NCBI GenBank assembly: GCA_029560585.1
Contig: JAKQKQ010000335.1
Span: 1-64,000 of the forward strand
Origin: Verrucomicrobiota bacterium
Lineage (GTDB): Bacteria > Verrucomicrobiota > Verrucomicrobiia > JADLBR01
Length of the DNA: 64,000 bases
Direction: 5' to 3'
Under the pieces are notes generated by a model, which was not told the DNA's origin, did no database searches, and saw nothing but the letters and a program-made list of their open reading frames with translations. This document shows positions 1 to 45,442 of the stretch, piece by piece. A program made the translations under genes and the position numbers. The first letter of the stretch is position 1; every line of letters starts with the position of its first letter.

Positions 1-141
1 GGCGCGGGACTCCGGTCGGCCTTCGCTACGCTCCGGCCTCCCTGCGTCCCGCACCCCCAGCCGGCACAAGAAGACAACAAACAAAGAAAGGGGACATTCT
101 CTCGTGAGTTAACAGGGGGACATTTCTAAAGAGTTTTGACA
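1..141 (+). mobile_element. 3' end of an IS element running off the left edge
   Basis: Two direct copies of a 25-27 nt motif lie at 90-115 and 115-141 (GGGGACATTCTCTCGTGAG... and GGGGGACATTTCTAAAGAG...), ending in TTAACA and TTGACA. Upstream, positions 16-39 carry on the minus strand GGCCGGAGCGTAGCG followed by AAGGCCGAC. This nearly matches 20686-20709, downstream of the transposase of the complete IS at 20584-22011. That element also has two direct copies of its end motif after the transposase, so the layout is the same although the motifs differ. The transposase of this copy would lie left of the window on the + strand. Inference from layout; the family name is not established. Confidence 0.5.
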
Positions 142-197: not shown

Positions 198-1595
198 TTA
201 CTGCGCGCGATGTTTCTTGCGCTGCTTGCGGGGCGCCGAGCCGGGTTCGGCGCCGTCGCTTTCCCTTTTCCCGCCGCCCCAGAGCGGTTTCACGAGCGTC
301 GCATTCCATGCGCCCCACTTGGCCTGCAGCTCCTTGGCCTTTTCGGGCATTTCTTGGGAGAGGTCTTTGGTTTCGCCGATATCGGTGGAGAGGTTGTAGA
401 GCCGGGGGGTTGTCACGGGCTGGTTGCGACCTCCCGATCGCGTGTCGGCGTTGCTATCGTATCGGACCAGTTTGTAGTCGCCGGTGCGGATGGCCATCTG
501 TTCTCCAAAGCGCCAATAGAGGGCATCGTGTGGGGGGCCAGATTTCTCGCCGGTGAGAAATGGCAGCAGGTTCACGCCGTCCAGTTTCCATTCTGGGCTC
601 ACCTCGACGCCCGCGACGGCCAGCGCGGTCGCGTGCAGGTCGAGCTGGATGGCTGGCTGTTCGAATACGCCCGGCTTCAGGTGGGTTGGCCACGATACGA
701 CGAAGGGAACGCGGATACCTCCCTCGAGCGTGGTGCGCTTGGACCCGCGCAACGGATCGTTGCGCGAGCCGTTGACGGTGACCCCAGGCATGGTGGGGCC
801 GCCATTGTCGCTGATGAACGTGATCAGCGTCCTGTTCTCGAGCCCGGCTTCGGCTATCGCTTTTTGGACGCGGCCGATGGCTTCGTCCATGGCGAGCATC
901 ATGGCGTCGTATGCGCGGCGCTCCTTGTCGGCGATCCCCTCAAACTTCGCGAGTCGATCATCGGTGGCGTGCATCGGCGTGTGGACGGCATTGAACGCCA
1001 GGTACAGGAACCACTGCTCGGCCTTATGCCGCTCGATGAACGAGACCGCCTCGCGGCCAAACGCGTCGGTTGTGTAATCCAGCTCATTGACCTGCTCGTT
1101 GCCCCGAAGGACTCCCGCGGCCTCGAAATAGCTGTGGGCGCCACCGAGGAAGCCGAAGAACTCGTCAAAGCCGCGTTTCTGCGGGTGCATCTCTGGCAAA
1201 GAGCCGAGGTGCCATTTGCCCACGATGCCGGTGACATATCCGGTCGACTTGAGGCGGTCGGCGATGGTGGTCTCGGTGAGCGGTAGGCCGTTCGAGCCCG
1301 ATGGATTGAATTCGTGCCCGAAGCGCGTCTGGTATCGACCCGTCATGAGTCCCGCGCGGCTCGGCGAGCAATAGGGACCCGAGACATAGCCGTTGGTAAA
1401 TCGAACGCCTCCGGCGGCGAGCCGGTCGAGATTCGGCGTGGGGATGTCCTTGCATCTGTGGAAGCCCACGTCCGCATAGCCCATGTCATCGCCGACGATG
1501 AAGAGGATGTTGGGCTTTTGCGGGGGGGCTGCTGTGATCGGGGCGGATGCGGCGGCGAGCAGCAGGGCGACGCGTGGGACGAGGGTGTGTTTCAT
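198..1595 (-). CDS. Exported type I sulfatase (CSPSR)
   Basis: A 465-residue formylglycine-dependent sulfatase that hydrolyses sulfate esters, probably on an exported glycan. Residues 1-22 form a signal peptide ending near TAA. Metal-site aspartates lie in VGDDMGYADVG (about 34-44). The formylglycine motif is CSPSR at 76-80, followed by AGLMTGR. The GKWHLG motif carries the catalytic Lys and His, and SDNGGP completes the calcium site, so all core motifs are intact. It is the last gene of the operon that starts with the sigma factor near 11366, and begins 18 bp after the preceding hydrolase ends (1614 to 1595). The basic C-terminus (PRKQRKKHRAQ) resembles that of the sulfatases ending at 5802 and 16775. 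The natural substrate cannot be read from sequence. Confidence 0.95.
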   Translation of the reverse strand: MKHTLVPRVALLLAAASAPITAAPPQKPNILFIVGDDMGYADVGFHRCKDIPTPNLDRLAAGGVRFTNGYVSGPYCSPSRAGLMTGRYQTRFGHEFNPSGSNGLPLTETTIADRLKSTGYVTGIVGKWHLGSLPEMHPQKRGFDEFFGFLGGAHSYFEAAGVLRGNEQVNELDYTTDAFGREAVSFIERHKAEQWFLYLAFNAVHTPMHATDDRLAKFEGIADKERRAYDAMMLAMDEAIGRVQKAIAEAGLENRTLITFISDNGGPTMPGVTVNGSRNDPLRGSKRTTLEGGIRVPFVVSWPTHLKPGVFEQPAIQLDLHATALAVAGVEVSPEWKLDGVNLLPFLTGEKSGPPHDALYWRFGEQMAIRTGDYKLVRYDSNADTRSGGRNQPVTTPRLYNLSTDIGETKDLSQEMPEKAKELQAKWGAWNATLVKPLWGGGKRESDGAEPGSAPRKQRKKHRAQ

Positions 1596-1613
1596 GGGTA
1601 AGTTACCTTTCCG

Positions 1614-4280
1614 TCATTCTGGAACGATCTCGTACCAGAGAGTCTTGTAGCGCGAATCGAGAACGAATCGCACGCCGCTGGCGGTGACATCGCCATTGAT
1701 CTGATCGAGCCGTCGCCCGTGGGAATCCAGCGGCCAGGCCGAGGCGCGTTTTGTTTTCAGTATCATTTCGAACGGGATTCCCTCGCACATCACCGGGCCA
1801 TCACCCCACTGGTCACCGACGGATGTCTTTTCGGCGTTCCAGCCCATGCCGCGATTCTCCACGTAGCCAGTGGCGGTCACCAGGATGCCCGCGCCGCGGG
1901 AATGGAAGTCGTCGCCCCGGATCGCGGAGGCGGTGATGACAGAGAAACCGCCCTGCATCGTCGGGCCGGGCCTGAGGGTCACGTCCCCCAACTCGAATGT
2001 CTTGCCCGCACCGAAACCGATCACGGCCTTGGCGCGCGGCGCATTGACCGTGAGCACGCCGCCGACCGCGTCGCTCAGATCGCAGGATAGCTCACTGGTG
2101 TCTGATTGAGCCCGCCTGAGTCCGGGGTCGGCGAGCGGCGCAGTTGCCCCTGAGCCAAGGTCGAGCCCGATCCGATGCGCGAATGCGTCGAGCCATGTCG
2201 CCCCTTTCCCTGCGGCGGCGTCGAACGATCGCCAAGATGAGCCGGACAGCCCGATCAGCGAACGTTTCTCTTCGTCCAGCGTCACGCCGATGGGCGTTTC
2301 CCCCCGCGCTGGTGCCACGTCGCCGCGTCGAAATGCGAGGGCGCCGAATGGGAGGGTGACGAGCTTGATCGGGTGACGGGCCATGTTGAACCAACCGTCG
2401 ATCTGATCGGGGGGGAGCTTTTGCGCCTCGCGACGTTGCCAGTCGTAGGTCATCTCCTGCCAGCAGTGGAAAACGATGCCGTCCCAGTCCTGCAGTGCCC
2501 CCAACGAGGCGATGGTGGGAACCTGCTCCGCGCAGTAGGTGCTCGGCGCGGGATGGCAGTACTCGCTGATATTATATGGCCTTCCGATCGTCCGGCGCCC
2601 GGCCAGTTCCACGACCTCCTCGCAGCCGCGGTTGACCATTGGGGAGTTGCCGATGGTCCAATCCTTCGGGTCCCAGGGTTTGTGGGGGAACGACGGATGT
2701 TGCCAGTAGCCGTGTGAGTCGAGGTAGTCACAACGTGCCTGGCTGAAATACGAGCTGTACTGGTCCACCTGAGTGCCCTTGATGGGATGCTTGCAGCCCA
2801 GCTCATTCCGGAGGAAGTCGCGCATCGTGTCGAAGTAGCGGGCGTCTTGCTCGTAGAGAAAATCCACGAAATCCGCGGCGACCTGCCGCGTGCGCCTCAC
2901 GCAGTCCTCTGGGGCCAATGGCATCGAGACGTTGCCTGCGTCGAGCGATTCGCCCGGGGGCAGTCCGATCACGTCCGCCTTGCGCAGGGAGAGCGCTGCC
3001 AGCGACACGCGGCTGGCGCCAAGCGGCGGCGTGATCATGAGTTTTGCGGCGGGCTCATCCTGGGCGCCCGCGAAGAACAATGTCACCTCTCCCCACTCGG
3101 GGCCGATCTCCGGCGATGCCGCCAGTCCCACGGTGCTCCATGGGGGATGATTCATGGAGACGATCACGCTGAGCTTCGCGGGCGCCTTGGTCGGGATGTC
3201 GGCCTTTGCGCAAAAGGAAAGCTGATATCGGCAGTCTTTTTCGATGACGAGGCCACCCTGGTTAAGGTTGACGAACGCCAGCCGTTCCTGCGCTCGATCG
3301 CTTTCGATGAGGACGCACGGCACCCGCCCCGGCCCGCCATCGGCGACGATCGCCATGGTGGCGGTTGACGGTTTGGCGCACTGCAAGCCCCATGGTGACG
3401 GACCGCCCGAAAAGTCGCCATTTTCCAGCATGTTTCGCGGCTCCGCGTGAATCTCTCCGGTCGACCAGGATTGGCGGAGACGGTCCGTCGTGGCGTGGCG
3501 CGTCTTCAGGAACTTGTTCCAGTGCGACTGGAGGTCGGCCACCATCGCGTCCGGCCATGCCTTGCGGAAGTGGCCGCCGCGCCAGGCGCAGATGAGGCCG
3601 TTCTCGTTGACGATTTCCAAAGAGGAGACCGCCGGTTCCTCGGTGTAGGCCTTGCCGGTGTAGGGATTGACGTGGCCGAAGAAATCTCGGGCGAACTGTT
3701 TCTCGGCCTCGACGAAGCGGTCGTTCCACAGGGGAATACCGCTGGCAAAGGGGGAGAATTTCTGAAAATCCGCGCCCGGATAGTCCGTCGGGCCCGAGAT
3801 GTTCCGCCAGTGATAGCCGTGTACCGGCAACTCGACGTAGATGCCGCATTTCTTGAGTTCGGAGATGAAGCAGTCGAGCCGGTCGAGCTGCGCGGGGTCG
3901 ATCTGCAACTTTCCCTTGTGGGCGGGATCGAAGAGGCCGAGGGGCGCGTGGTGTCCGTCGATCAGGTGGATTCGCACCTGATTCATGCCCCGGCTGGCCA
4001 GCCGTCGTGCCACGAGAGGTGCATCCTCGCGGGAGGGGAAACAGGCCACCCCTATGACACACGTGCCCCAGAAGCGGATGCGTTTGCCGCCTGCGAAGAA
4101 ATGGCCGTCGCGTACCGAGACGAGGTCGTTCGCGGGCGCGCCATTGAGAAAAGAAAGGTCGGTGATGCCTTCGGTGATGCAGTCGGCGGGGAGCGAAAAC
4201 GGAAAAAGGTTTTCGGCGGTGTCCGCGGCCGATGAGGTACCGGCGATGAGCAGAGCGGCGAGAGTGATGGGGTGTTTCAA
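1614..4280 (-). CDS. Exported clan GH-A glycoside hydrolase-like protein
   Basis: An 888-residue protein starting at TTG 4280. This start overlaps the upstream gene's stop as TTGA and has AAGGA about 8 nt upstream, so I prefer it to the longer frame from 4340. The signal peptide is LKHPITLAALLIAGTSSAA. A TIM-barrel-like part follows, with WGTCVIG, NQVRIHLIDGHHAP and LDCFISELKKCGIYVELPV. Likely acid/base Glu is in SLEIVNENG and likely nucleophile Glu in YNISEYCHPAP, the usual strand 4 and strand 7 positions of clan GH-A. An insertion around residues 300-440 looks like a carbohydrate-binding beta-sandwich. It shares this layout with the protein at 55977-58874. The exact GH family is not assigned. 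Its place between sulfatase genes suggests it cuts the desulfated backbone. Confidence 0.8.
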   Translation of the reverse strand: MKHPITLAALLIAGTSSAADTAENLFPFSLPADCITEGITDLSFLNGAPANDLVSVRDGHFFAGGKRIRFWGTCVIGVACFPSREDAPLVARRLASRGMNQVRIHLIDGHHAPLGLFDPAHKGKLQIDPAQLDRLDCFISELKKCGIYVELPVHGYHWRNISGPTDYPGADFQKFSPFASGIPLWNDRFVEAEKQFARDFFGHVNPYTGKAYTEEPAVSSLEIVNENGLICAWRGGHFRKAWPDAMVADLQSHWNKFLKTRHATTDRLRQSWSTGEIHAEPRNMLENGDFSGGPSPWGLQCAKPSTATMAIVADGGPGRVPCVLIESDRAQERLAFVNLNQGGLVIEKDCRYQLSFCAKADIPTKAPAKLSVIVSMNHPPWSTVGLAASPEIGPEWGEVTLFFAGAQDEPAAKLMITPPLGASRVSLAALSLRKADVIGLPPGESLDAGNVSMPLAPEDCVRRTRQVAADFVDFLYEQDARYFDTMRDFLRNELGCKHPIKGTQVDQYSSYFSQARCDYLDSHGYWQHPSFPHKPWDPKDWTIGNSPMVNRGCEEVVELAGRRTIGRPYNISEYCHPAPSTYCAEQVPTIASLGALQDWDGIVFHCWQEMTYDWQRREAQKLPPDQIDGWFNMARHPIKLVTLPFGALAFRRGDVAPARGETPIGVTLDEEKRSLIGLSGSSWRSFDAAAGKGATWLDAFAHRIGLDLGSGATAPLADPGLRRAQSDTSELSCDLSDAVGGVLTVNAPRAKAVIGFGAGKTFELGDVTLRPGPTMQGGFSVITASAIRGDDFHSRGAGILVTATGYVENRGMGWNAEKTSVGDQWGDGPVMCEGIPFEMILKTKRASAWPLDSHGRRLDQINGDVTASGVRFVLDSRYKTLWYEIVPE

Positions 4281-5740
4281 GGGTCGATCCTTGCGAGTTC
4301 CTGGACGGCGCGTATGGCCATGAGTTCGCAGTTGAACCACATCGGGCCCGAGGGTTGCATGACCCAGGTGAGATACCGGCCGGGGGCCGCTCGGTTGGAT
4401 TGTGTGCGGGCGAGGGTGGCGGCGAGTCCCTTGGCCTTCTCGAGATGCAGGCGGTCCCCCGTGGCGTCATAGGCGGCGAGGTACGTGCAGATCAGTTTGG
4501 CGGAACTGGCGCAAACCGGCGCGTAACAGCGGTACTGTTCCAGGACGCAGGGCAGCATCCAGCCGCGCCTCCTGGCGCCGGATTCGCCGTCGGGGTTTTG
4601 TTTCAGGGGTGTTTCGGCCGGCGGCTGCGCCCAGATCACGAATTGATCCTCGGCGAAGCGGAGCAGATCGAGCGCGAGTGCCCGGCGCGCCTGATCCTGA
4701 GGAGCCGTCTCCAGCAGGTGTATCGCAAAGTCGCAGGCCTCGTGTTTGGTGAGGTTCTGATAGGGCGGCTGGGGTTTCACGTCCTCGAACTGGCCCTGCC
4801 AATTCCATGTGCGCACGGGGTATTTTTCGATCCACGCGATGGCGTTGTCGCGCACGGGTTCGAAGCGGCGATCGCCGGTCACTCGCCCGAGCCGATCTAG
4901 GAAGGTGATGACCGACGTTAAGATGAGAACGTTGTCCGTGACTGGCTGGTTGTCCTTTGCGGTCACGAAGAGTGGCCAGCTTCCCTCTGGCGTTTGGCGC
5001 CGAGCGTAGGTTTCCGCGATGCGCACGGCGGCATCGAGGTACTTTCTGTCCCCGGTCGCGGCATGGACGTCGAGGTAATAGAGTCCGGTTTCCGCCCCGC
5101 AGAGGGTCATGTGGCGTTCGGCCACCATGTGTCCGCGGAGCCGATCTTGGAACATCGTGGGATGATAGGTGGGCGGATGGAACGCCCACGCGGCATCCTT
5201 CGGATGGCGGATCCCCAAGAGGTAGTCGGCCGCGCGGCGGGCCGCCAGAAGCGCCTGGACCGCATCCGGTGGCGGTGGGTGCTGTGAGGCATAGATGGCC
5301 AGCGCGGCTGCGGCGGAGAGCAGACCCGTGAGATGACACTTGCCGAATGCGCCGGTGGCGTAGCCTTTTTTCTGGAACAGTTTGGCCAGCGTCAAGCGGC
5401 TTAGATCGAACAGCAGCGGACCGCCGGGGGCATGGACTCCGGTGGGATGATGCCTTGGTTCGCGCCAGAAATAGCGGCCCGCCATCAATCCGTAACGGGT
5501 CGGCGAGCAGACGGATCCCGGCGTGTAGGCCTGGGTGAAGCGCACGCCCTCGCTGGCGAGCCGGTCGATGTTCGGCGTCTTGATTTTCGTCGCCCCGTAA
5601 CAACCGACGTCGCCGTAGCCGAGGTCGTCGGCCAGGATGAGCACGAAGTTGGGCGCGGCGGCGGCATGTGCCAAGAAAGGTGACGCCAAGAGAACCATCG
5701 GGAACTCGTGCCGGCGAGAGTTGGTCGTGGTTGTCGTCAT
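4277..5740 (-). CDS. Chimera: sulfatase N-terminus fused to an alpha/alpha-toroid-like domain
   Basis: Start chosen at ATG 5740 (487 aa; ATG 5698 is also possible). Residues 1-27 look like a signal peptide. Residues 30-137 are a clear sulfatase N-terminus: LILADDLGYGDVG, the formylglycine motif CSPTR (78-82), then GKCHL where sulfatases normally have GKWHL. From about residue 138 sulfatase similarity stops. The rest is helical, with repeats such as LLAARRAADYLLGI, TGLYYLDVHAATGDRKYLDAAV and LICTYLAAYDATGDRLHLEKA, typical of six-hairpin (alpha/alpha) toroid hydrolases and lyases. The missing sulfatase half includes the DNG calcium motif, so sulfatase activity is unlikely. The frame stays open across the join near 5338, and the stop overlaps the next gene's TTG start. 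It could be a real deletion fusion or an assembly error. Confidence 0.75.
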   Translation of the reverse strand: MTTTTTNSRRHEFPMVLLASPFLAHAAAAPNFVLILADDLGYGDVGCYGATKIKTPNIDRLASEGVRFTQAYTPGSVCSPTRYGLMAGRYFWREPRHHPTGVHAPGGPLLFDLSRLTLAKLFQKKGYATGAFGKCHLTGLLSAAAALAIYASQHPPPPDAVQALLAARRAADYLLGIRHPKDAAWAFHPPTYHPTMFQDRLRGHMVAERHMTLCGAETGLYYLDVHAATGDRKYLDAAVRIAETYARRQTPEGSWPLFVTAKDNQPVTDNVLILTSVITFLDRLGRVTGDRRFEPVRDNAIAWIEKYPVRTWNWQGQFEDVKPQPPYQNLTKHEACDFAIHLLETAPQDQARRALALDLLRFAEDQFVIWAQPPAETPLKQNPDGESGARRRGWMLPCVLEQYRCYAPVCASSAKLICTYLAAYDATGDRLHLEKAKGLAATLARTQSNRAAPGRYLTWVMQPSGPMWFNCELMAIRAVQELARIDP

Positions 5741-5801
5741 GTTGGTGGATGCGCCCTGCGGGTCCCATCTGGGACTGGGCGCCGGCTTGCGAACTGTGGC
5801 G

Positions 5802-7172
5802 TCAGGATTCCGCCCTTCGCTTCCTATGCTGTTTCCTCTTGCCTTTTGTTTGGGCCGCGCCCTCCCGCGGTTTGGGTTCGGGCAGCGATGCGAGGATGGC
5901 GGCAAAGCGCTCGCGGGCCGCCTTCACTTCCGGGTCCCCCGAGGTGGTCACGTCTTTGTAGCTGGTGCCATCGCGGCTTTCGCCGCAGTCAAAGAACCTC
6001 TCGGGCTTGCCGTCTTTGGGGATCTCGAGGAGCCAGCGCTCGTCGCGGAGGATGCGGCCATCGTCGAGATGGCTGTAGATCCAGTCTCGGTGTTTCGGTT
6101 TTTCGCCGCGGAGCACCGGTCCGAGGCTGTGGCCATCAAAGGGGATATCCTTGGGCAACTCGGCCCCGGCGTACTCCGCGAGGGTGGGCATGATGTCGGT
6201 GAGATCCGCAACGGCGCGGGAGACGACGCCGCGTTTCACGCCCGGTCCGCAGATGATGCAGGGGACGCGGGCTCCGAGTTCCGTCACGGTGCCCTTGCCC
6301 TCGCCGCCCGTGCCGTTATCACCGATGAAGATCACCAGCGTGTTTTCGTCGAGTCCCTCGGCCTTGAGCGCGGCGAACAGCCGACCCATGAGATAGTCGA
6401 GGTATTCGAGATTGGATTTCAGACCGGCCGGCCAGCGCGTGCCGGGTTTGGTGGGGTCGGGTGTTTCCACGCGCGGCTGGTGGGTGAGCACAGATGTGTA
6501 ATAGACAAAGAAAGGTCCGTCCTTATGGCGGCGCGCGAAGTCGATGACGAAGTCGTTGAAAAGATCCGGGCCAAAGTCGTCGGGAGTCGTGGGGCGATAT
6601 TTGCCATTCTCGACGATGCTGGGTTGCCAGTACCTGGAAGCATTGGATTTTTGGCCTTTGCCCTCGTGGGCGGGGTGCTTGATGCCGGCTGGCAGATTAT
6701 GGTCGTAGGCCCACATGCGATACTCATCGAAGCCGGAGTCTTGAATGAGGGTGGGGAGTTCGCCGGAAAGCTGCCATTTGCCCGCGAGCGCGGTCGCGTA
6801 GCCACGCGATTTCAACAGGTCGGCGTGCGTAAAATGCTCGGAGATCCTAGATTGTGGTGATTCTGGGGAGGGCTTGAAGGCGGGGTTTTGCATGCCGAGA
6901 AAACCGTTGTGGAATCCGTATTGTCCGGTCATCAGTGCGACGCGGGTGGGGGTACACAGGGGGTTGGCGTAGAATGTTTCGAAGCGCATTCCTTCCGCCG
7001 CCATGCGATCGAGGTTGGGCGTGCTGTGCCGTTGGCTGCCGTAGCAGGAGAGCTCTTTTGCGCCGAGGTCGTCCGCCAGGACGAGGATGATGTTGGTTCG
7101 TGACGGGTCGGCGGCGTGGCAAGCGACGGCGCCGGCGAAGAACGCCAGGCAGAGGAGGATCTTGTTTTGCAT
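5802..7172 (-). CDS. Exported type I sulfatase (CTPTR, GKWQL variant)
   Basis: A 456-residue sulfatase. Start taken at ATG 7172 (signal peptide MQNKILLCLAFFAGAVACHA), 8 nt downstream of the previous stop; ATG 7190 would overlap that gene. Metal motif VLADDLGAKE (31-40), formylglycine motif CTPTR (73-77), VALMTGQYG, and IFIGDNGTGGEG for the calcium site are visible. The GKWHLG motif reads GKWQLSGE, so the catalytic-site His is replaced by Gln. This may mark a subfamily rather than a loss of function. The C-terminal tail is very basic (TKGKRKQHRKRR). It sits fourth in the sigma-factor operon. The product is expected in the periplasm or outside. Confidence 0.93.
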   Translation of the reverse strand: MQNKILLCLAFFAGAVACHAADPSRTNIILVLADDLGAKELSCYGSQRHSTPNLDRMAAEGMRFETFYANPLCTPTRVALMTGQYGFHNGFLGMQNPAFKPSPESPQSRISEHFTHADLLKSRGYATALAGKWQLSGELPTLIQDSGFDEYRMWAYDHNLPAGIKHPAHEGKGQKSNASRYWQPSIVENGKYRPTTPDDFGPDLFNDFVIDFARRHKDGPFFVYYTSVLTHQPRVETPDPTKPGTRWPAGLKSNLEYLDYLMGRLFAALKAEGLDENTLVIFIGDNGTGGEGKGTVTELGARVPCIICGPGVKRGVVSRAVADLTDIMPTLAEYAGAELPKDIPFDGHSLGPVLRGEKPKHRDWIYSHLDDGRILRDERWLLEIPKDGKPERFFDCGESRDGTSYKDVTTSGDPEVKAARERFAAILASLPEPKPREGAAQTKGKRKQHRKRRAES

Positions 7173-7179
7173 GGTGGTG

Positions 7180-9159
7180 CTACTTCGCATCAAAATCCCA
7201 TCGGGTGGGTTTGGCGTCTGGAGAGGCGGGCTGGAGCTCGACCCAATCCAGAGCGACGGCCTTGCCCCTTGCGGGAAGATAGAGGCGGAGGTGGAGGAGC
7301 GACCCTTTGACCGGGAGCTGGGCGGTTGTTTCGGCGCCCTCGGCGCTTGCGGGTAGGGTGAACTCTTGGACCTGGCCCTCGTTGGGGAATGCATCTTGGT
7401 CGGCGGTTCGCCACTGAACTTTGGCTGGTCCGCCCTCGGACTTCGCGCGGAGGCGAAGGGTCACGGGGCCCATGAGTTTGAGGGCCGTCAAGCCGAGGAA
7501 TGGTGCAGGGCCCTCACCCGTCACGATGAGCCAGCCATCGCGTTCCTCGGCCCCGCAATTTTTCGGCACCCAGCCGCCGAGTGGCCTTGCGGCGCGGGCG
7601 GGGCTTCCTGTCCCCGGTTTGAATGCGGGATTGGGCCGCGGGTAGGTGGCGCCGGTATCGGAGAGGAAACCATCGATGAGCGCGTCCATCTCCTTCACGC
7701 GATTGGGTTCGGCGGGGGCCAGGTTCTTTGTCTCGCCGATGTCGTCGCGCAGGTTGTAGAGCTCGCGAAGGCTTGGGTCGGCTGGGGGAACGCCGAACCA
7801 GCGGATGAGTTTCCAGTCCCCAGATCGCACCCACACACCGCCCGCGTGTCCGGCGCTGCGGCCGTGGGGGAAGTAGTTGAAGAAAGCCTTGCGCTCGAGC
7901 GCACCGGTCTGCTTCAGCACGTTGGCGTAGCTTACTCCGTCGATCTTCTGCTGGGCGGGACGCGACAGGCCGACCATGTCGAGCAACGTGGGATACAGGT
8001 CTATGTGCCCGACCACCGCATTGCTGGTGGTGCCCGGCTTGATGCGTCCTGGCCACGACCACATCAGCGGGACGCGCGTGCCGCCCTCATAGAGCGAGCC
8101 CTTGCCGTCGCGGAGCGGTGCGTTGATCGTGGGCGGTTGCGTGCCGGCCCATTTGCGCCAATCGACCATAAAAGGATCGTCGGCCTTGCGGCGCTGGGCC
8201 CTCCCATCTTCCGCTGTGTTGCTGTGGGTGTTGCCGCCATTGTCAGAGTTGAAGACGACGATGGTGTTGTCCGCGATGCCGAGGCGGTTGAGGGTGTCGA
8301 GGACGCGTCCAAAACATTCGTCCACGCTCTTGAGCATCGAGGCCATGATGGGATTGCCCTGGACGCCCCGCGGATCTTTCTTGGGGGCGAACGCCTTGGT
8401 GTACTCCACCTTGTGGCCCCATGGGCCGTGGACTCCGTAATTCCAGAGATTCAGGAAAAACGGCCTGTCGCGGTTCGCCTCGATAAACCTTATGGCCTCG
8501 TCCGCGAGGCGATCGACAATGTACTCGCCGGGTGGGCCATCGGTGATAGTGCCGACTTTGTTTTTGCCGCCGGGAGTTCCTTCTGGGCTCACGCCATAAG
8601 GAGAGAAGTAGCTGCCGGGGGGGCCGGGGTCGGGGTGGCAGTGGAACGTTGTATCGAAGCCCTGCTGTTCCGGCCAGTATGGCTGCGTCAGGCCGAGGTG
8701 CCACTTGCCGATGTGGGCGGTACGATAGCCTGCGTTGCGCAGCGCCTCGGCGAGCGTATGCTCCGATGGCTCCATGAAGTTCTTGCTCTTGGGCGCGAGC
8801 ATTGGCTGGGAGGGCGGCGCGCTGTCGGGCAGGTATTTGTAGTTCGCGGGCTGCGGGGGCAGATGGCCGGAGGCGCTGGTGATGCCGTGGCGGGCGGAGT
8901 ATTTCCCGGTCAGGAGGCTTGCGCGCGTGGGCGAGCACAGCGGTTGCGCGTAGGCGTCCGTGAACCGCATCGCATCCTTGGCGAAGCGATCGATGTTGGG
9001 TGTCTCGTAGTATTTTGATCCATATACCCCGCAATCCATCCAACCCATGTCGTCCACGAGAAAGACGATGATGTTGGGTTTGGATGGTTTCGGCGCATCG
9101 GCGGCGCGGGGTGCCGCCGATGCACACATCAGGATGGCGAGGATTAGCATTCGTTTCAT
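7180..9159 (-). CDS. Exported type I sulfatase with C-terminal beta-sandwich extension
   Basis: A 659-residue protein, longer than the usual 450-550 aa. ATG 9159 is preceded by AGGTGG at good spacing. The signal peptide is MKRMLILAILMCASAAPRAA. Sulfatase motifs are FLVDDMGWMDCG (33-44), formylglycine motif CSPTR (75-79), GKWHLGLT and NSDNGGNTH. After the sulfatase fold ends near residue 540, a 110-120 residue segment rich in beta-type sequence (VTLRLRAKSEGGPAKVQWRT, LLHLRLYLPARG, VALDWVELQP) looks like a carbohydrate-binding or galactose-binding-like domain. That domain call is inference. It begins 12 bp after the FecR-LamG gene ends and is third in the operon. Confidence 0.95.
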   Translation of the reverse strand: MKRMLILAILMCASAAPRAADAPKPSKPNIIVFLVDDMGWMDCGVYGSKYYETPNIDRFAKDAMRFTDAYAQPLCSPTRASLLTGKYSARHGITSASGHLPPQPANYKYLPDSAPPSQPMLAPKSKNFMEPSEHTLAEALRNAGYRTAHIGKWHLGLTQPYWPEQQGFDTTFHCHPDPGPPGSYFSPYGVSPEGTPGGKNKVGTITDGPPGEYIVDRLADEAIRFIEANRDRPFFLNLWNYGVHGPWGHKVEYTKAFAPKKDPRGVQGNPIMASMLKSVDECFGRVLDTLNRLGIADNTIVVFNSDNGGNTHSNTAEDGRAQRRKADDPFMVDWRKWAGTQPPTINAPLRDGKGSLYEGGTRVPLMWSWPGRIKPGTTSNAVVGHIDLYPTLLDMVGLSRPAQQKIDGVSYANVLKQTGALERKAFFNYFPHGRSAGHAGGVWVRSGDWKLIRWFGVPPADPSLRELYNLRDDIGETKNLAPAEPNRVKEMDALIDGFLSDTGATYPRPNPAFKPGTGSPARAARPLGGWVPKNCGAEERDGWLIVTGEGPAPFLGLTALKLMGPVTLRLRAKSEGGPAKVQWRTADQDAFPNEGQVQEFTLPASAEGAETTAQLPVKGSLLHLRLYLPARGKAVALDWVELQPASPDAKPTRWDFDAK

Positions 9160-9171
9160 GATCCACCTCGT

Positions 9172-10806
9172 TCAAAGGGAGGTTGTCTTTGGATTTGGGT
9201 CTCCGCCTGTTTCTTCCTTCGGGGCGGACAGACTATTTGTCTTCATCAGCCGACGGATCTCTTGGGCGGTGAGGGCCCTGCCGGCGACTATGAGTTCGTC
9301 AATTTCGCCGCGGAAGCGCTCGCCACGGACGCGACCGCCGGGAGGGCGCCCGATCCAGAGGGTTTCGGCCGAGGGTGAGTCCTCGTGGGTGGCGGGAACA
9401 ATGGACGGGGGGGCTGGGCGCTTGGGTTTGGACACAGACGTGGCCTCGAGGCGGCCATCGACGTAGAGCCGGACGTGGAGGAGTTTGCGTGTTCGGCCCG
9501 CGGGCACGAAGGTGGCGGCGACATGGTGCCAGTTGCCATCGCGAAGGGGGGTGGTGCCGACGACGGCGTCAGGGCCGCGGTCGGCGCGCAAGGCGCCCAC
9601 CGTGCCTTGGCCGGGGCGGGCATTCCATCCGAGCAGTGTGGCGGGGTTGCCGGTCTTCCGGCCCTTGCCTTTCTCGCCCCAAGCGAGAATCGTCTGGCCG
9701 CTGGTGAGGGGCGCGTCCTGCGGGAGGCGCACCCAGAAGGCGACCGTGCGGCGCGCATCAGAGGCGATGCCTGGGAACGGCGCCGCGGCGGCGAAAGTAC
9801 CGTCGAGGCACAGCGCGCGGCCCCAGCGGCCCTCGGAGCCTGCCTTTTGGGTTGGGTGTTCGAAGTGGGCGATGGGACGAACGGTGGGCATGCCGACGAC
9901 GCTGGCGGTCGCGATGTCGCCCTCGGATTCATCGAAAGACCAGTGCGCATAGGCGAGGGGGGCGGGTGGAGTATCCAGGGTTAAAGTCTGGGCCAGTCGC
10001 TCCAGCTTTCTATCGCGGTCGCGGACATCCGACGCGCCGGTCTTTGCGAATCGTCGGCCCTCCTTTTCGCGCAAGACGAGGGGTTTGCCCTCTGAGGCGG
10101 TTTCGACCGAGCCCTTGAGCACGAGCACTTCGGCCGCGCCGTCCTCGTTGGCGACGACGGTGAATTCCGTGCCGAGGTCGACGACCTCCACAGCGGGGTT
10201 GGAGACACGAAAGCCCACCGCCTCGGGGGGCACTTGTGCGCGCAGCGTTCCGCGGCGCAGGGTGGCCGCCCATGCGGAATCCAATTCCAGGGATGCGGGT
10301 CCCTCGATGACCACGATTGCACCGCAATCGAACGCGATTTCCGCCAGTCCTCCGGAGATCGCGAGCACCTGTCCCCGGTTGAGGTGGTCGCCCGCGTTCG
10401 GGGCCGGGCTCCCCGGCGCCCACCGGCAATTCTTCGTTTGGAGCAGGACGGCCACGAAGCGGTCCGTGTCGAGCGCGCCGTCGTCGTTGTTTTGGGACCA
10501 CTGTTTTGCGAGGGTGAAGAATATGACGAGTGAGGCGGCAAGGGTTCCAATCGTCCACCATGAGGCGGGATGGCGAATGATCCGCGCAGGGGCTGGCATT
10601 GGTTCTGGGGCCTCGGTCTGCAATTCGCCTGCGTAGTGGCAGAGGCTCGCCGAGAGGCCCATGTATTGGACATAGAACCTGCGCGCGTCGTCGGATTCGA
10701 GCAGCCAACGGGCCAGTTTTTCGTGGCCCGCGTCGTCGATGGTTCCGTCGATCAGCGCATCGCAGAGCGCGGTGAGCTCGAGAGATTCAGAGTCGTCCGA
10801 GTTCAT
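9172..10806 (-). CDS. FecR-type anti-sigma regulator with extracytoplasmic LamG domain
   Basis: A 544-residue single-pass membrane protein. Residues 1-75 form a short cytoplasmic part with WLLESDDARRFYVQYM, as in anti-sigma N-termini of this group. A transmembrane helix lies at about 82-100 (WWTIGTLAASLVIFFTLA). A FecR domain follows (about 125-235, with AVEVVDLGTEFTVV), then a LamG/concanavalin-like domain (about 285-510, with RWGRALCLDG, TVAFWVRLP, WHHVAATFV, LYVDGRLEA, GEIDELIVAGRAL). The start codon overlaps the sigma-factor stop as ATGA, so the two are translationally coupled. By family knowledge FecR proteins transmit a signal to ECF sigma factors; that LamG binds the glycan attacked by the downstream sulfatases is inference. 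Confidence 0.92.
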   Translation of the reverse strand: MNSDDSESLELTALCDALIDGTIDDAGHEKLARWLLESDDARRFYVQYMGLSASLCHYAGELQTEAPEPMPAPARIIRHPASWWTIGTLAASLVIFFTLAKQWSQNNDDGALDTDRFVAVLLQTKNCRWAPGSPAPNAGDHLNRGQVLAISGGLAEIAFDCGAIVVIEGPASLELDSAWAATLRRGTLRAQVPPEAVGFRVSNPAVEVVDLGTEFTVVANEDGAAEVLVLKGSVETASEGKPLVLREKEGRRFAKTGASDVRDRDRKLERLAQTLTLDTPPAPLAYAHWSFDESEGDIATASVVGMPTVRPIAHFEHPTQKAGSEGRWGRALCLDGTFAAAAPFPGIASDARRTVAFWVRLPQDAPLTSGQTILAWGEKGKGRKTGNPATLLGWNARPGQGTVGALRADRGPDAVVGTTPLRDGNWHHVAATFVPAGRTRKLLHVRLYVDGRLEATSVSKPKRPAPPSIVPATHEDSPSAETLWIGRPPGGRVRGERFRGEIDELIVAGRALTAQEIRRLMKTNSLSAPKEETGGDPNPKTTSL

Positions 10807-11351
10807 GGCGCGCCCTCCCTTGCAAGCCGGGACGTCACGCAGTCAAAGAGAAGTTTGCGGATGCGGGCGAGGGCCTTGTATGCGGCCTGGAGCGAGCGAC
10901 CGGAGCGCTGGGCGGCCTCGGCGACGCCGCAGCCCGGCTCGTAGCGAGTGAGCATCATCTCCCGGTCGCGCGGGTGCAGACGGCCAAGGCAATGTTCGAG
11001 CGCCTCGTGGCGCGCGTCGAGTTCCTTGACCATGGACGAGGCGGTGGCCGCGATTGCGTCCACCACCTCCTGATTGAAGGTGACTTTGGATCTCGCGAAT
11101 TTCTGGCGCGCGTTGCGGACGCGCCAGTGGGCGATCTGACAGGCCCACGCCACGAAATCGGTGCCGGACCGGAAACTGGCGAATTTCTCGCAGATGATCA
11201 GGTTGGTTTCCTGAAGGAGATCTTCGGCGGCATGCCTATCGGGGACGAGCGCGTAGAGGTAGGAGAATATGCGCCGCTGGTGCCGCGTGATGAGCGAGAC
11301 CAATTCCTTTTGTCGGTCCGGATCGAGCGACTGGCTGGATGTCTCATCCAT
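10803..11351 (-). CDS. ECF-type RNA polymerase sigma factor
   Basis: About 182 residues from ATG 11351; GTG 11366 would add five residues and no strong ribosome site decides. Region 2 is visible in RRIFSYLYALVPDRHAAEDLLQET (early part) and FVAWACQIAHWRVRNARQKFAR. Region 4 is in LGRLHPRDREMMLTRYEPGC and GVAEAAQRSGRSLQAAYKAL. There is no C-terminal extension. The stop overlaps the FecR-LamG start (ATGA). As first gene of a seven-gene run, it probably drives expression of its own sulfatase operon when released by its partner, an inference from order and coupling. Confidence 0.95.
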   Translation of the reverse strand: MDETSSQSLDPDRQKELVSLITRHQRRIFSYLYALVPDRHAAEDLLQETNLIICEKFASFRSGTDFVAWACQIAHWRVRNARQKFARSKVTFNQEVVDAIAATASSMVKELDARHEALEHCLGRLHPRDREMMLTRYEPGCGVAEAAQRSGRSLQAAYKALARIRKLLFDCVTSRLAREGAP

Positions 11352-11440
11352 GCGATGCTTGGCCACGGACCCCGCCGGGCCGGGGCCGCGTTTGCAGCGC
11401 GGATCCCGGCCCGATTCAATTCAGGCGGGGAACGGATCTG

Positions 11441-11743
11441 TCACTTGTTCTTCTTTTTGCCTTTTGCGCCGGGCTTGATGGCATCGAGTTCGGCGTCGCT
11501 GAGTTTGCCATCGTTGTCGGCATCAAACCGCTTGAGCCTGCCATCGGGCTTCTTCGCGAAATCCTTGAGGATGGCGTCCTTCTCCTCTTTGTCCAAAGTC
11601 CCATTGGAGTTGGCATCGTACTGAGTGAACACGTCGGATTTCTTTACGCCTTTTTTGCCTTCGCCCTTCGCCGCGAGACTGGTTGCGGGCATCGCCAGGC
11701 CGATCGCAATCAGGCTCATTATAATTACGCACAGTCTCTTCAT
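11441..11743 (-). CDS. Small exported EF-hand protein
   Basis: A 100-residue protein. ATG 11743 is chosen because AGAAGG lies upstream and a signal peptide follows directly (MKRLCVIIMSLIAIGLAM, cleavage near SLAA). Two EF-hand loops are visible: DANSNGTLDKEE and DADNDGKLSDAE, each with Asp/Asn at positions 1, 3 and 5, Gly at 6 and Glu at 12. The tail is basic (KPGAKGKKKNK). It probably binds calcium outside the cytoplasm. It ends about 90 bp before the sigma factor start and could share its transcript. Sulfatases also carry calcium, so a link is possible but unproven. Confidence 0.9.
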   Translation of the reverse strand: MKRLCVIIMSLIAIGLAMPATSLAAKGEGKKGVKKSDVFTQYDANSNGTLDKEEKDAILKDFAKKPDGRLKRFDADNDGKLSDAELDAIKPGAKGKKKNK

Positions 11744-11905
11744 TGTCTTCAACCTTCTGTTTCGATTGCGCAAAACTCTTTCCAGCGCCGGGGTCGCAAT
11801 CGCCCCCCGGGCGGCCGGCGTGATGGCCGGTTCATTAATGGGATAGCGCGGGGCGCGGGTTTTGGGACACGGGGAGTGGGGCGACGGATGCCGTCCGGGC
11901 GGGGG

Positions 11906-13189
11906 TCAGGCTATCTCCTCTTTTTTGGGGTCCCAGCGGACCTCGCGTTTGAGCCGATAGGATTCGACGCTCATGAGGGCGGTGGCGATCTCGATGAAGG
12001 CCTCGTCGATGTGGCATTTGGGGCGACCGCCGGTCCGCACGCACTGGAGGAAATCATCCATATGGTTGGGCCATTTTTCGCCCTTGCTGGGGTCGTAGGC
12101 GAACGTGGGTTCCGGCATTTTGCCCATGTGGGGGAAGGCGGGTCCGTCTGGGTAGATCCAGAAGCGGCTGGCGTCCTGGCCGATGCCATTGAAGATCAAT
12201 CTCCCGTCTCGGCCGATGTATTCTGGGGGCTGCTGGCGTTTGGAATTCATGCAACCCTCGAACGTGAGGGAGCAGGAGTGCTTCTCGAAACGGTACGAGG
12301 CGAGCCAGGTGTCGGGCACTTCGCGGCCGTCATCGTAATAGGCGTTGAGGCCCGCGCACATGCATGTGTCGGGGATGCCCCATCCGAGGACGCACTGCAC
12401 GTGATCGGTCTCGTGGGTGAGGAGGTCGCCGGCCTGGCCGGTTCCGTACGGCCAATAGCATCGCCAGTGCCAGAAGTGTTTCTCGTTGAAATCGATCTTG
12501 GGTGCCGGGCCAAGCCATTTTTCCCAATCAAGGTCTTTGGCGACCTGCGCGGGATCGGGTCGGTCATACCACGTATAGTAGCCGTACCAGCGCCACGGGG
12601 CGCGTTCTTTGGACCCGTTGAAATACCTGCCGATGTGGATCAGCGTGACGGGGCCGATGCGGCCATCGCGGATGAGGCGACCGGCCTCGGCGGTCGCGGG
12701 GAGTTGGCGCCCCTGGTGGCCCAACTGGAAAACGGTGCCGGCCTTTTTCACGGCGGAGCGCATCCGTTTTGCGGAGGCGATTGATGTGGTCAGGCCTTTC
12801 TCGCAGTAGATCGCCTTTCCCGCTGCGACGGCGTCCAGGACCATCTGTTCGTGCCAATGGTCGGGGGCGGCGATGACGACGGCCTCGATCTTTGGATCGG
12901 CGAGGAGGTCGCGGTAATCCCTGTAGGCCTTGGCCTCCGGATTGCCGGACGCCTCGATGCCGCGTTTGAGGTGGGGGCCGTAGACGTCGCAGACCGCGAT
13001 GACTTTCGCCTCGGGCACCGCACCCGTGTATTTGATGAGATCCCATCCGCGCGTGCCGGTGCCGATATGGCCGATGCGAACGGGTTCCTTCGCGAGATCC
13101 GCGCCGCGCAATATGGCCGGGGCCGCGAGCGCCGCCGCGCCCGTGGCGAGGAAATCGCGCCGAGTGATCGAACTGCTGGTGGGCTTCAT
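11906..13189 (-). CDS. TAT-exported Gfo/Idh/MocA family oxidoreductase
   Basis: A 427-residue protein starting at ATG 13189, where the TAT signal SSITRRDFLATGAAALAAPAI begins. A Rossmann dinucleotide site follows (VRIGHIGTGTRGWD), then VIAAPDHWHEQM and the catalytic-type motif IYCEKGLTTS, where the Lys of the EKP motif is kept. The middle carries WHWRCYWPYGTGQAGDLLTHE, typical of exported family members in Planctomycetes and Verrucomicrobia. By family these are NAD(P)-dependent sugar dehydrogenases or redox-type glycosidases; the substrate is unknown. It begins 13 bp after the TerC gene ends and probably shares its transcript. Confidence 0.92.
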   Translation of the reverse strand: MKPTSSSITRRDFLATGAAALAAPAILRGADLAKEPVRIGHIGTGTRGWDLIKYTGAVPEAKVIAVCDVYGPHLKRGIEASGNPEAKAYRDYRDLLADPKIEAVVIAAPDHWHEQMVLDAVAAGKAIYCEKGLTTSIASAKRMRSAVKKAGTVFQLGHQGRQLPATAEAGRLIRDGRIGPVTLIHIGRYFNGSKERAPWRWYGYYTWYDRPDPAQVAKDLDWEKWLGPAPKIDFNEKHFWHWRCYWPYGTGQAGDLLTHETDHVQCVLGWGIPDTCMCAGLNAYYDDGREVPDTWLASYRFEKHSCSLTFEGCMNSKRQQPPEYIGRDGRLIFNGIGQDASRFWIYPDGPAFPHMGKMPEPTFAYDPSKGEKWPNHMDDFLQCVRTGGRPKCHIDEAFIEIATALMSVESYRLKREVRWDPKKEEIA

Positions 13190-13202
13190 GGGCCGGAGTT
13201 TC

Positions 13203-14165
13203 TCAGGACGGCGGGCTTTTGCGACAGTCAAATCCACGGGCCGGGGGGATACTGGACACCGGGCGGAGCAGCGAGAGCACGATGGATGTGGCCAGGATGA
13301 GGGCTACCACGAGGAGGGAGACGAGGCTGTCGATCTTGTAGGGCGAGTGGGCCAAGAGCATCTTGATACCCACGAACACCAGTATCACACCGAGGCCGAT
13401 CTTGAGGTAATGGAATTTGCCCATCATGCCGGCCAGCGCGAAATAGAGCGAGCGAAGGCCGAGGATGGCGAACACATTTGAGGTGTAGACGATGAAGGGG
13501 TCGGAGGTGATCGCGAAGACCGCGGGAATGGAATCGACCGCGAAGATCAGGTCGGTGAATTCGACCAGCAGGAGGACGACGAAAAGTGGCGTCGCGAAGC
13601 GGCGGCCTTGTTCCATGACGAAGAACCGGTCCTCCCGGTAATCCGCAGTGACGGGCATTATCCGCTTGAACCAGAGCACGACGGGATTTCGCTCGGGGTG
13701 GATCTCCTGTTCCCTTTTGATGATCATCTTGATGCCGGTCAGGATCAGGAAGCCGCCGAAGACATAGATGACCCAGGCGAATCGCTCGATGAGGATCGAT
13801 CCCAGGGCGATCATGACGGCGCGCATGACCAGGGCCCCGAGGATGCCCCAGAACAGGACCTTGTGCTGGTACTCCCGGGGGACGGCAAAGTAAGAGAATA
13901 GCAGGGCGAACACAAAGACGTTGTCCATGCTGAGCGACTTCTCAACGAGGTAGCCCGTCAGGAACTGGACGCCCATCTGCGGACCCCCGAGCCACCAGAC
14001 CCCGGCGTTGAAAAGCAGGGCGAGAAAGACCCAGGCCACCGTCCAGGCGATAGATTCCTTCAGGGAGATCACGTGCGCCTTGCGGTGGAAAACGCCGAGG
14101 TCGAGCGCGAGCATGGCGATGACGAAGAGGTTGAAGCCGATCCAGAGCCAGAGTCGTTCGGTCAT
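13203..14165 (-). CDS. TerC/Alx family integral membrane protein
   Basis: A 320-residue protein with about eight or nine membrane segments, beginning MTERLWLWIGFNLFVIAMLA. Family hallmarks are LDLGVFHRKAH, EKSLSMDNVFVFALLFSYF, LLLVEFTDLIFAVDSIPAVFAIT and NVFAILGLRSLYFAL, with conserved acidic residues inside the membrane. Alx and TerC relatives export manganese or act in metal loading of exported proteins; that role is family knowledge. It starts 8 bp after the aminotransferase stops, which leaves no room for the manganese riboswitch that often precedes alx genes. Confidence 0.94.
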   Translation of the reverse strand: MTERLWLWIGFNLFVIAMLALDLGVFHRKAHVISLKESIAWTVAWVFLALLFNAGVWWLGGPQMGVQFLTGYLVEKSLSMDNVFVFALLFSYFAVPREYQHKVLFWGILGALVMRAVMIALGSILIERFAWVIYVFGGFLILTGIKMIIKREQEIHPERNPVVLWFKRIMPVTADYREDRFFVMEQGRRFATPLFVVLLLVEFTDLIFAVDSIPAVFAITSDPFIVYTSNVFAILGLRSLYFALAGMMGKFHYLKIGLGVILVFVGIKMLLAHSPYKIDSLVSLLVVALILATSIVLSLLRPVSSIPPARGFDCRKSPPS

Positions 14166-35762: not shown

Positions 35763-35897
35763 GGTCATGACTCCGGCAATGGATTCAGTCGGCGGCGTGT
35801 TTTGGCGGCGGCACCAAATCCGGGCGAAAGGGCTGCATTTGGTGATGCCCTCGTTGGGATGTGCTCGGAGGTACATCCATCGTTCCGAATGTCCGTT

Positions 35898-36452
35898 CTA
35901 CTGAAGCTGGCGCCCGCCCAGCTTGCGGTAGTTTTCGATGGGGTAGACCGCATAGGCGCAGCAACGGAGTTTCATTTTGGCATCCTCGCCGAAGCGCAGG
36001 ATCGACGAGGGCGACAGGGTTCCCGTCGTGCCGTGAAAATAGAAGTGCGTCTTCCATTTCTTGGGGATGCGGTAATCGTCGATGCGGATGGTTGTGCCGT
36101 CCTTGAACCTCATGCTGATGGCGTACGTGGTGTCGAGGTCCACGATGAAATCGGCGGTGTGGTGGCCGTCGCCCTTGCCGCCGGTGCGGGAGAAGGGCTC
36201 GGTCTTCTTCTCGACGACGGTGCCGTCTGCCGCGGTCAACTTGACCGTGGCGCCCTCGGCGACGGAGAGGTCCACCCTGTAGTCCGACGGATCCTCGTTC
36301 AGCCGCATGCCCGTGACGACGATCACCGCGCGGTCCTCTTTGTAGGCGGCCTCGCGAGACTTCTTGGGAGGGGCGGGGTGGAGCAAGGCGGCGGCCAGCG
36401 ACATCGTGACCGCGAGGCAGATTGCATGACGCATCCTCATGGGTTTCCTCAT
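35898..36452 (-). CDS. Exported protein of unknown function
   Basis: 184 residues. ATG 36452 overlaps the stop of the upstream gene as ATGA, so translation is probably coupled. Signal peptide MRMRHAICLAVTMSLAAALL. The mature part is beta-rich with charged turns (YRVDLSVAEGATVKLTAADG, TYAISMRFKDGTTIRIDDYR, YFHGTTGTLSPSSILRFG). No known family recognised. As it follows a pectinase-like gene, it may bind or modify the same substrate. Confidence 0.8.
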   Translation of the reverse strand: MRKPMRMRHAICLAVTMSLAAALLHPAPPKKSREAAYKEDRAVIVVTGMRLNEDPSDYRVDLSVAEGATVKLTAADGTVVEKKTEPFSRTGGKGDGHHTADFIVDLDTTYAISMRFKDGTTIRIDDYRIPKKWKTHFYFHGTTGTLSPSSILRFGEDAKMKLRCCAYAVYPIENYRKLGGRQLQ

Positions 36453-38059: not shown

Positions 38060-38084
38060 GGGTTCTCGTTTGGAAGGGAGGCTT

Positions 38085-40703: not shown

Positions 40704-40858
40704 TTTCGAACCAGATGGTGATGTTCCACAAGTTCCTGGATGGCGCCGGGTATGCTCGGGTGCCGACCGTGCGCACGCCATGAGGTTTTGCGCCTTTTGC
40801 TTGATGTTTTTGACCGCGATTGGCCGCGGCGTGCCCCCATCGGGTCGGTCCGATTCGA

Positions 40859-42040: not shown

Positions 42041-42226
42041 GCTTTGATTCCAGCCTAGAGGCTGAACCCCAACACGGTGCCTCGGCAAAACAAAAAACCA
42101 CGGCTGGCGGCCCGGGCGTTCGCGACCGACCTTGACCGGGAACCGTGCAACGGGTAACGGGTTACACGTGAGATCGATAGAGAGACCTGCGACATTTGGC
42201 GCGGGTCGTTGACAGGAGATTATGCA

Positions 42227-45200: not shown

Positions 45201-45442
45201 GGGAGCGGCAGGGCGATGATTTGCACCTGCACGTCCTGGTTCCACCGAATGCGACTGCAACCGTCCTGCTGCCGACCTTTGGAAAGCAGGGCCTGAAGAT
45301 TACCGAGAGCGACAAACCCATCGATGGCACCGCCGAAGCCGACCGCATCAGGGTCGAGATCGGCGCCGGGGAGTACCGGTTTATCGTCCACGGGCTCGGA
45401 TCGCCGCCTCAGCCCGATCGCGGGATCGCGAAGGCGGAGTGA
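42227..45442 (+). CDS. GH78 alpha-L-rhamnosidase, lipoprotein
   Basis: 1071 residues from ATG 42227, with GGAG 8 nt upstream. The N-terminus ends in a lipobox (AALLSSC, Cys about 25), so the enzyme is probably lipid-anchored. A fibronectin-like start (LTCEHRRDPIGLDDAAPRLS) leads into N-terminal rhamnosidase domains (AYVTGLGGYEMQINGERVGQ, YDKRIQYQTYDVT). The catalytic (alpha/alpha)6 barrel has VPTDCPQRDERLGWMGDAQA and GATTIWERWNT, giving the general-acid and general-base Glu. The C-terminal sandwich follows ALIRPYV-like sequence (HTIIRPYV). It hydrolyses terminal alpha-L-rhamnose. Confidence 0.95.
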   Translation: MIFSVTVRMSGVLAAMVWAALLSSCGVGSGAGSPMDLTCEHRRDPIGLDDAAPRLSWRLDDARRGAKQTAYRLLVATTAAALAKDSGDLWDSGRVASDQSVLVPYGGKALASRQRSYWKVMVWDGEGKPSPWSDVAFWEMGLLGFGDWRAKWVTPPDLEIVDRPIPTGNWLRLPVGTMFLRAAVDFRKDPEPHHGRVALAADAPCEVFLNGRPVGRLDDVSKVAWVVMPNGLRQGENVVGIRATAGALSRVATGFRVTRFGGDRFELGAPKWACATEAPKNWAQPAFNASAWATAEDSGEACALKQEFDGPRRSQLMRRDFEISSKPVRARAYVTGLGGYEMQINGERVGQDIFTPGWTLYDKRIQYQTYDVTGLVRQGRNAIGAWLGNVWWSSGLGWLGGERHSKPGENLRLLLQLEVECEDGSKQVVVSDGEWQCAPSPILEDTLYHGETYDARLEQKGWDLIGFRGDGWRPVLIAGDPDARLCAERGPSIRVTQELEPEKITEPKSGVYVLDFGQNHPGRPRLTVRAPAGTRITMRHAELLAPDGRIDTINYRSARATDAYVCKGNGEEVWEPRFTYRGFRYMEVTGLPKAPGKRTIVSRVLHTAGQMAGEFECGDALINRILGNVRWGLRSNLHSVPTDCPQRDERLGWMGDAQAFAPTSMWLMDLAGFYGKWMRDVADSQQPNGATTGVCPIIVIGRDTDARSAWADAVSIIPWRVYEYAGDRRILEENYGAVRRWVEYMRGNLTGGLYEKPTWGDWVPVRDLKANKEIKTPHEPVSAAYGYLSTRLLARMAEILGKADDAKTYGALADDMAEKYNAKYLKPDGGYRAETQAADVLPLYFGITPPDKRATVAKSIADDVVRRGGHHTTGFLGTPLILPLLADAGYPDLAWRIVSTDEYPSLGYMVKKGATTIWERWNTDREGPAMNSHNHFAFGSMAQWFFEGLAGLRPDDAQPGFKHTIIRPYVVGDLKWAKAKYPSPYGRLLSHWERQGDDLHLHVLVPPNATATVLLPTFGKQGLKITESDKPIDGTAEADRIRVEIGAGEYRFIVHGLGSPPQPDRGIAKAE

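Follow-up and report, generated by a model that had tools for sequence, protein, structure and literature searches.

Control of glycan-degrading enzymes by ECF sigma factors and anti-sigma factors is accepted for the polysaccharide utilisation loci of Bacteroidota, where it operates via SusC-type TonB transducers. The FecI/FecR/FecA system of E. coli likewise comprises an ECF sigma factor followed by a membrane FecR regulator. In Clostridium thermocellum, the SigI/RsgI systems control polysaccharide-degrading enzymes through anti-sigma factors that bear an extracellular domain of carbohydrate-binding type (PMC4711584, PMC12203970). In R. baltica, the DUF1549/DUF1553 gene RB10051 has been put forward as a target of the ECF sigma factor RB10049 (Studholme et al., as cited in PMC2754498).

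Verrucomicrobiota and Planctomycetota are very rich in sulfatases (116 in the genome described here). The locus presented below carries an ECF sigma factor and a FecR-LamG protein in front of a sulfatase operon. What this computational analysis adds is an EF-hand cassette, its predicted promoter motif, and a cis/trans contrast between two congeners; among the papers searched, none dealt with such a cassette, with the motif, or with ECF/FecR/LamG in combination with sulfatases or EF-hands.

Gene Content of the Locus

The window (the whole stretch of DNA analyzed) covers the opening 64 kb of contig C9; the genome it belongs to (G000) totals 7.06 Mb in 336 contigs. The closest relative compared, G001, belongs to the same genus. 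The features at the beginning of the window are the following:

1..141, strand undefined (.): multicopy repeat; six further contigs of this genome hold copies at 95-100%, starting at base 1 in five cases
198..1595, minus strand: sulfatase SUL3 (PF00884, 1.3e-59; exo-4S-kappa-carrageenan sulfatase 6prm, E 1.1e-100, nearly full length)
1614..4280, minus strand: probable GH-A clan glycoside hydrolase (GHA) with a CBM4/9-like insert (5-sequence profile search)
4277..5740, minus strand: chimeric ORF SULTOR, sulfatase part plus alpha/alpha toroid (the halves match separate genes in relatives)
5802..7190, minus strand: sulfatase SUL2 (PF00884, 9.6e-43; CTPTR motif)
7180..9159, minus strand: sulfatase SUL1 (PF00884, 3.8e-54; closest solved relative kappa-carrageenan sulfatase S1_16, 9fo1, E 1.3e-98)
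9172..10806, minus strand: membrane anti-sigma candidate FecR-LamG (PF04773 and PF13385; hydropathy)
9217..9969, minus strand: LamG (concanavalin A-like lectin) domain, about residues 280-530 (PF13385/Laminin_G_3, E 9e-17, residues 350-517)
10803..11351, minus strand: ECF sigma factor, TIGR02989 family (170.9 bits against a cut-off of 124.55, positions 2-158)
11441..11743, minus strand: gene for a small secreted EF-hand protein, at the head of the cassette (EF-hand Pfam matches)

The initial annotation had described seven closely spaced minus-strand genes between 198 and 11366, with ATGA and TTGA overlaps; all seven are present, and measurement of the junctions bore out their spacing. The sigma and FecR genes share an ATGA overlap, FecR and SUL1 are 12 bp apart, and the SUL1/SUL2 junction ranges from -11 to +7 bp with the start chosen. 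The gap between SUL2 and SULTOR measures 61 bp, and is followed by a TTGA overlap of SULTOR with GHA and by 18 bp between GHA and SUL3. The sigma factor probably starts at ATG 11351, not at GTG 11366. The EF-hand gene at 11743-11441, which lies 74-89 bp upstream of the sigma gene and heads the unit, had been missed.

The downstream end of the operon is uncertain because window base 1 is the end of the contig, where bases 1-141 form a repeat that recurs at the ends of other contigs. This repeat probably marks the border of a mobile element that broke the assembly, and the operon may either continue past base 1 or stop at this element. Elsewhere in the window (32949-45442), GH106 and GH78-type rhamnosidases together with a pectate-lyase-like protein make up a likely rhamnogalacturonan locus.

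A Pfam scan placed the PF00884 sulfatase domain in four ORFs of the operon, and the S1 formylglycine sulfatase signature (C-x-P-x-R plus the downstream DN metal site) is complete in SUL1, SUL2, and SUL3. Since the nearest solved structures of both SUL1 and SUL3 are kappa-carrageenan sulfatases, a sulfated-galactan-like substrate is suggested, though not proven, for these two enzymes. The best solved relative of SUL2 is arylsulfatase A, and none is close.

Most of the gene identities first assigned (sigma factor, FecR-LamG, sulfatase ORFs, GH-A enzyme) were retained, but the presumed sulfatase-toroid fusion turned out to be a chimera of two truncated genes. SULTOR holds the N-terminal third (~110 aa) of a sulfatase domain, with a CSPTR motif alone and without the C-terminal part, joined in-frame at a GK[WC]HL motif to a toroid that lacks ~190 N-terminal aa. 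The sulfatase part is 86% identical to a complete sulfatase from a genome of a different family (G047:C17), and the toroid part is 71% and 70% identical to G001:C421 and G010:C25, respectively. An interpretation as a new bifunctional enzyme was rejected, as both halves are truncated and the fusion is absent from all 57 genomes compared. Either a recent deletion produced SULTOR or the MAG was misassembled at this point, and the protein should be dead as a sulfatase.

The 908-aa protein encoded at 1614-4280, for which the Pfam scan gave no match, is probably a GH-A clan hydrolase. In a search with a 5-sequence profile, GH5 mannanases came up at E 6e-6 and the CBM4-type insert at E 1e-11, and the invariant residues N245/E246 and E593 would fit the acid/base and the nucleophile of this clan. 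Acquisition by horizontal transfer is suggested because GHA is 73-75% identical to proteins from another family (in G007 and G015), whereas its best match in the same-genus G001 reaches only about 34%. The G007 and G015 homologs have no sulfatases nearby.

The EF-Hand/Sigma/FecR-LamG Cassette

The EF-hand protein carries a signal peptide, and its homologs (34-74% identical) are encoded immediately 5′ of the sigma gene in L177-L181, of which L177 is the cassette locus of G001; in L137, an EF-hand gene occupies the same place relative to sigma. The sigma factor of the window is the top scorer among 11 TIGR02989 matches in its genome, two of which exceed the cut-off, and has FecR directly 3′ of it, as is usual for TIGR02989 sigma factors in the phylum.

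The FecR-LamG protein is laid out as an N-terminal domain of ~75 aa, a hydrophobic segment at about residues 82-100, the FecR domain (PF04773, 29.6 bits against 24), and LamG. The Pfam scan of this protein returned FecR and Laminin_G_3 only, with no RsgI N-terminal anti-sigma domain. Relative to G001, identity amounts to 69% in the N-terminal domain, 38% in the TM/linker, 79% in FecR, and 64% in LamG, making FecR the part best conserved between the congeners and LamG somewhat less so. LamG is kept in most cassettes and is degenerate in L181. The conservation of the FecR domain, along with the report that ECF activity in E. coli requires N-terminal residues of FecR (PMC7406223), would agree with FecR activating the sigma factor as in E. 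coli, the signal arriving from a separate outer-membrane transducer and LamG serving only to anchor the protein or to bind cell-wall material. No TonB-dependent transducer was seen among the window genes scanned around the cassette, which counts against such an arrangement, and we regard it as improbable.

The three-gene cassette occurs in seven Verrucomicrobiota genomes (that of the window, L177-L181, and L137) with differing genes downstream. Its members in G001 are 74% (EF-hand), 85% (sigma), and 67% (FecR) identical to those of the window; past FecR, ~350 bp lead to a convergent gene, and the SUL1 ortholog (65% identical) is found on a separate contig (C258), unlinked from sigma. In L178 and L179, the cassette is followed by DUF1549/1553 and DUF1501 genes with an ATGA-type overlap, and in L180 and L181 by other genes. 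The initial annotation had proposed a self-contained sulfatase circuit, to be abandoned if the pair were found next to unrelated genes in close relatives. This is what the relatives display: sulfatases do not adjoin the pair in G001, and elsewhere it precedes DUF1549/1553-DUF1501 or unrelated genes, so that gene order is not conserved. Because the genes downstream of the pair differ among lineages, the locus is better described as a portable cassette, in which, by these comparisons, EF-hand/sigma/FecR-LamG is the conserved unit and the cargo is variable.

In a 104-tip tree, the cassette sigma factors cluster and group with those of L134 and L136, neither of which shows the EF-hand gene or the motif described below; a monophyletic EF-hand sigma clade was not accepted, as support at the joining node was 0.02. 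Both congeners also have GFO/IDH/MocA and TerC genes flanking the cassette, in swapped order (window 11906-14165; L027 3866-7336), and in G001 an ion-channel-like gene sits between TerC and the EF-hand gene.

The special character first attributed to the layout was overstated. Two phylum surveys of strong TIGR02989 matches found FecR directly behind the sigma gene in 26/30 and 40/40 loci (together 66/70), and the tails of 31 surveyed FecR proteins comprised LamG in 13 cases, NPCBM in 2, and CBM96 in 1; the window is one instance of a widespread ECF/FecR-LamG layout. Genes directly behind the surveyed pairs include a GH5-type cellulase, an alpha-L-fucosidase, an alginate/polysaccharide lyase, a GH76-type enzyme, and a GDSL esterase, with DUF1549/1553 behind 12 of 30 surveyed loci, in agreement with what was proposed for RB10049/RB10051 (PMC2754498); none of these enzyme or DUF1549/1553 types was seen downstream of control ECFs. 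Sulfatases lay within ~10 kb of ECF-FecR at 4/30 loci of the first survey, downstream at 10/40 of the second, and at 0/20 control ECFs. With sulfatases near a minority of ECF-FecR loci and the pair not specific to them, adjacency was rejected as proof of coupling and, since sulfatases are so common in this genome, is weak evidence on its own. A second ECF/FecR-LamG pair is present in both congeners (L029 12416-16338 in G000:C98; L028 8117-14645 in G001:C153), where a sulfatase gene lies directly 5′ of sigma and the gene for an ~830-aa protein without Pfam matches overlaps the FecR end.

The neighbourhood of cassette and sulfatases could be opportunistic or due to chance, a general regulator behind which a sulfatase block with promoters of its own was recently inserted without functional coupling. 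The bare pair in G001, the differing cargo in L178-L181, and the sheer number of sulfatases in the genome speak for this, as does the mosaic look of the block, with GHA homologs away from sulfatases, SULTOR parts of two sources, and a flanking repeat. On the other side are the overlapping starts and stops within the block and a simple scan that found no sigma-70-like (housekeeping) promoter in the region, a scan that is weak and uninformative in a GC-rich genome, together with the cassette motif in front of five sulfatases of G001, the SUL1 ortholog among them (see below). Chance or opportunistic adjacency is for us an unlikely account.

A Shared Predicted Promoter Motif

Two non-coding features precede the EF-hand gene:

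11785..11806, minus strand: conserved non-coding block GGGGCGATTGCGACCCCGGCGC, 22 bp, within the predicted 5′ leader, after the putative promoter and ahead of the EF-hand start
11843..11869, minus strand: predicted promoter, TGTCCCAA-N14-GCTAT (same motif and 22-nt spacing 5′ of the EF-hand gene in relatives)

The motif was first spotted by eye in aligned EF-hand leaders and then tested. TGTCC-N17-GCTAT precedes the EF-hand gene in the cassettes of the window, G001/L177, L178, L179, L180, and L137 (six of seven), mostly as TGTCCnAA-N14-GCTAT, with L137 having the TGTCC-N17-GCTAT form; it was not seen in the L181 cassette. Its two blocks are 22 nt apart (first base to first base) in all six, and its distance to the EF-hand start is 94-127 nt in the window, L177, L178, L179, and L180. 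Among surveyed loci, it was found 5′ of 1/70 TIGR02989 genes (L137 only) and 0/20 control ECFs. G000, at 7.06 Mb, has a single exact 12-base match to the motif (11869-11843) and G001 has three, against none for the backward control. Two short blocks at this spacing are what an ECF promoter should look like, and we infer that the motif is read by the cassette's own sigma factor. One-mismatch matches in G000 (C317 and C130) have no long ORFs behind them and were taken as chance. The block GGGGCGATTGCGACCCCGGCGC is identical in G001, where it lies inside a longer conserved stretch, and has one exact copy per genome in G000 and G001. A structured RNA in the EF-hand leader was considered and dropped (fold z-scores of -0.15 and -0.76).

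The three exact copies in G001 lie 5′ of the cassette, of a sulfatase (C227, 9 nt before its start), and of a DUF1549/1553-DUF1501 operon (C190), and the SUL1 ortholog (C258) has a one-mismatch copy 45 nt before its start. Allowing at most 2/12 mismatches, sites were found at 5 of 46 sampled sulfatases in G001 and at 0 of 65 in G000; the G001 sample (46 of 131) was not random and included C227, fetched for its motif, without which the count is 4/45. One of the five sites is exact, two have one mismatch and two have two, and all lie 90-129 nt before the sulfatase domain. Letter-shuffled decoys gave a mean of 0.37 for G000 and G001 together, with 0/300 reaching five, and the one-sided hypergeometric probability of 0/65 versus 5/46 is near 0.01. 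Gene order, from which the coupling of sigma factor and sulfatases was first read, varies; a single regulon nevertheless appears to unite them, as indicated not by adjacency alone but also by the cassette motif that the unlinked SUL1 ortholog of G001 bears.

In L180, five exact TGTCC-N17-GCTAT copies fall within 20 kb, adjoining the starts of heparinase II/III-type, PEP-CTERM, Ig-domain, and AP_endonuc_2/3-keto-disaccharide hydrolase genes as well as the cassette. The copies at L180 3230-9487 form two divergent pairs and a single site. The sulfatase of G001:C227 (L187 12588-14315), which has the exact cassette motif in front, ends in two EF-hand motifs.

These targets bear on whether the cassette answers envelope or calcium stress instead of a glycan, with the sulfatases and DUF1501-type enzymes acting in surface remodelling. 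The EF-hand gene at the cassette head, the C-terminal EF-hands of one G001 target sulfatase, the PEP-CTERM and Ig surface proteins among the L180 targets, and the heat, cold, and salt stress response reported for R. baltica sulfatases in minimal medium (PMC2754498) would all suit a stress role. A glycan signal is instead favoured by the retention of LamG in most cassettes, by the often carbohydrate-active enzymes encoded next after other such pairs in the phylum, and by the heparinase II/III-type and 3-keto-disaccharide hydrolase genes that L180 targets also include. We hold a stress role to be less likely.

Proposed Regulatory Circuit

We consider it likely that an autoregulated three-gene cassette drives a sulfated-polysaccharide operon, by cis read-through in the window's genome and through trans promoters in G001; the conservation of the cassette, the motif, and its placement are read directly from the sequences. 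Briefly, the FecR protein would hold the sigma factor through its cytoplasmic N-terminus of ~75 residues, and the sigma factor would be released or activated once a polymer or its product touches the extracytoplasmic FecR-LamG portion, a step in which calcium and the EF-hand protein may take part. The sigma factor would then read TGTCCnAA-N14-GCTAT at 11869-11843 and have its own cassette transcribed in positive feedback, and assumed read-through past FecR would carry transcription from SUL1 to SUL3. None of the sulfatases sampled in G000 has its own motif site. The same sigma factor in G001 would reach sulfatases, including the SUL1 ortholog, and the DUF1549/1553-DUF1501 operon in trans via promoter copies. 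A bolder reading, in which the EF-hand protein is a true third component that gates the LamG-FecR anti-sigma factor in a calcium- and glycan-dependent manner, and in which the regulon was rewired from trans to cis between the sister species, strikes us as rather unlikely.

Taken together, a readable motif tied to one sigma/anti-sigma cassette provides a testable regulon in uncultured bacteria, the cis/trans contrast of two congeners illustrates how such regulons can be rebuilt, and with the EF-hand gene comes a new candidate for a signalling partner.

Comparison with Known Systems

The locus shares with FecI/FecR/FecA the succession of ECF sigma factor and membrane FecR regulator, but differs in that its FecR has a LamG tail, its putative targets are enzymes and not iron transport, and no FecA-type transducer was seen nearby. 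The Bacteroidota loci differ likewise by their SusC-type TonB transducer, which was not seen in the window operon; the SusC/SusD families gave no match in a scan covering genes of the operon and adjacent genes. The resemblance to SigI/RsgI is one of outline, the ligand in the window being putative: here the sigma and anti-sigma factors belong to different families, the Pfam scan matched no RsgI domain, and the envelope is Gram-negative. The TIGR02989/FecR pairs of Rhodopirellula and Verrucomicrobium, RB10049 among them, are alike in linking an ECF sigma factor to cargo, and L178/L179 and the G001 motif display the DUF1549/1553-DUF1501 cargo as well. The window departs from RB10049/RB10051 in its sulfatase/GH cargo, in the EF-hand gene at the head of the unit, and in the specific predicted promoter motif that can be read in front of it.
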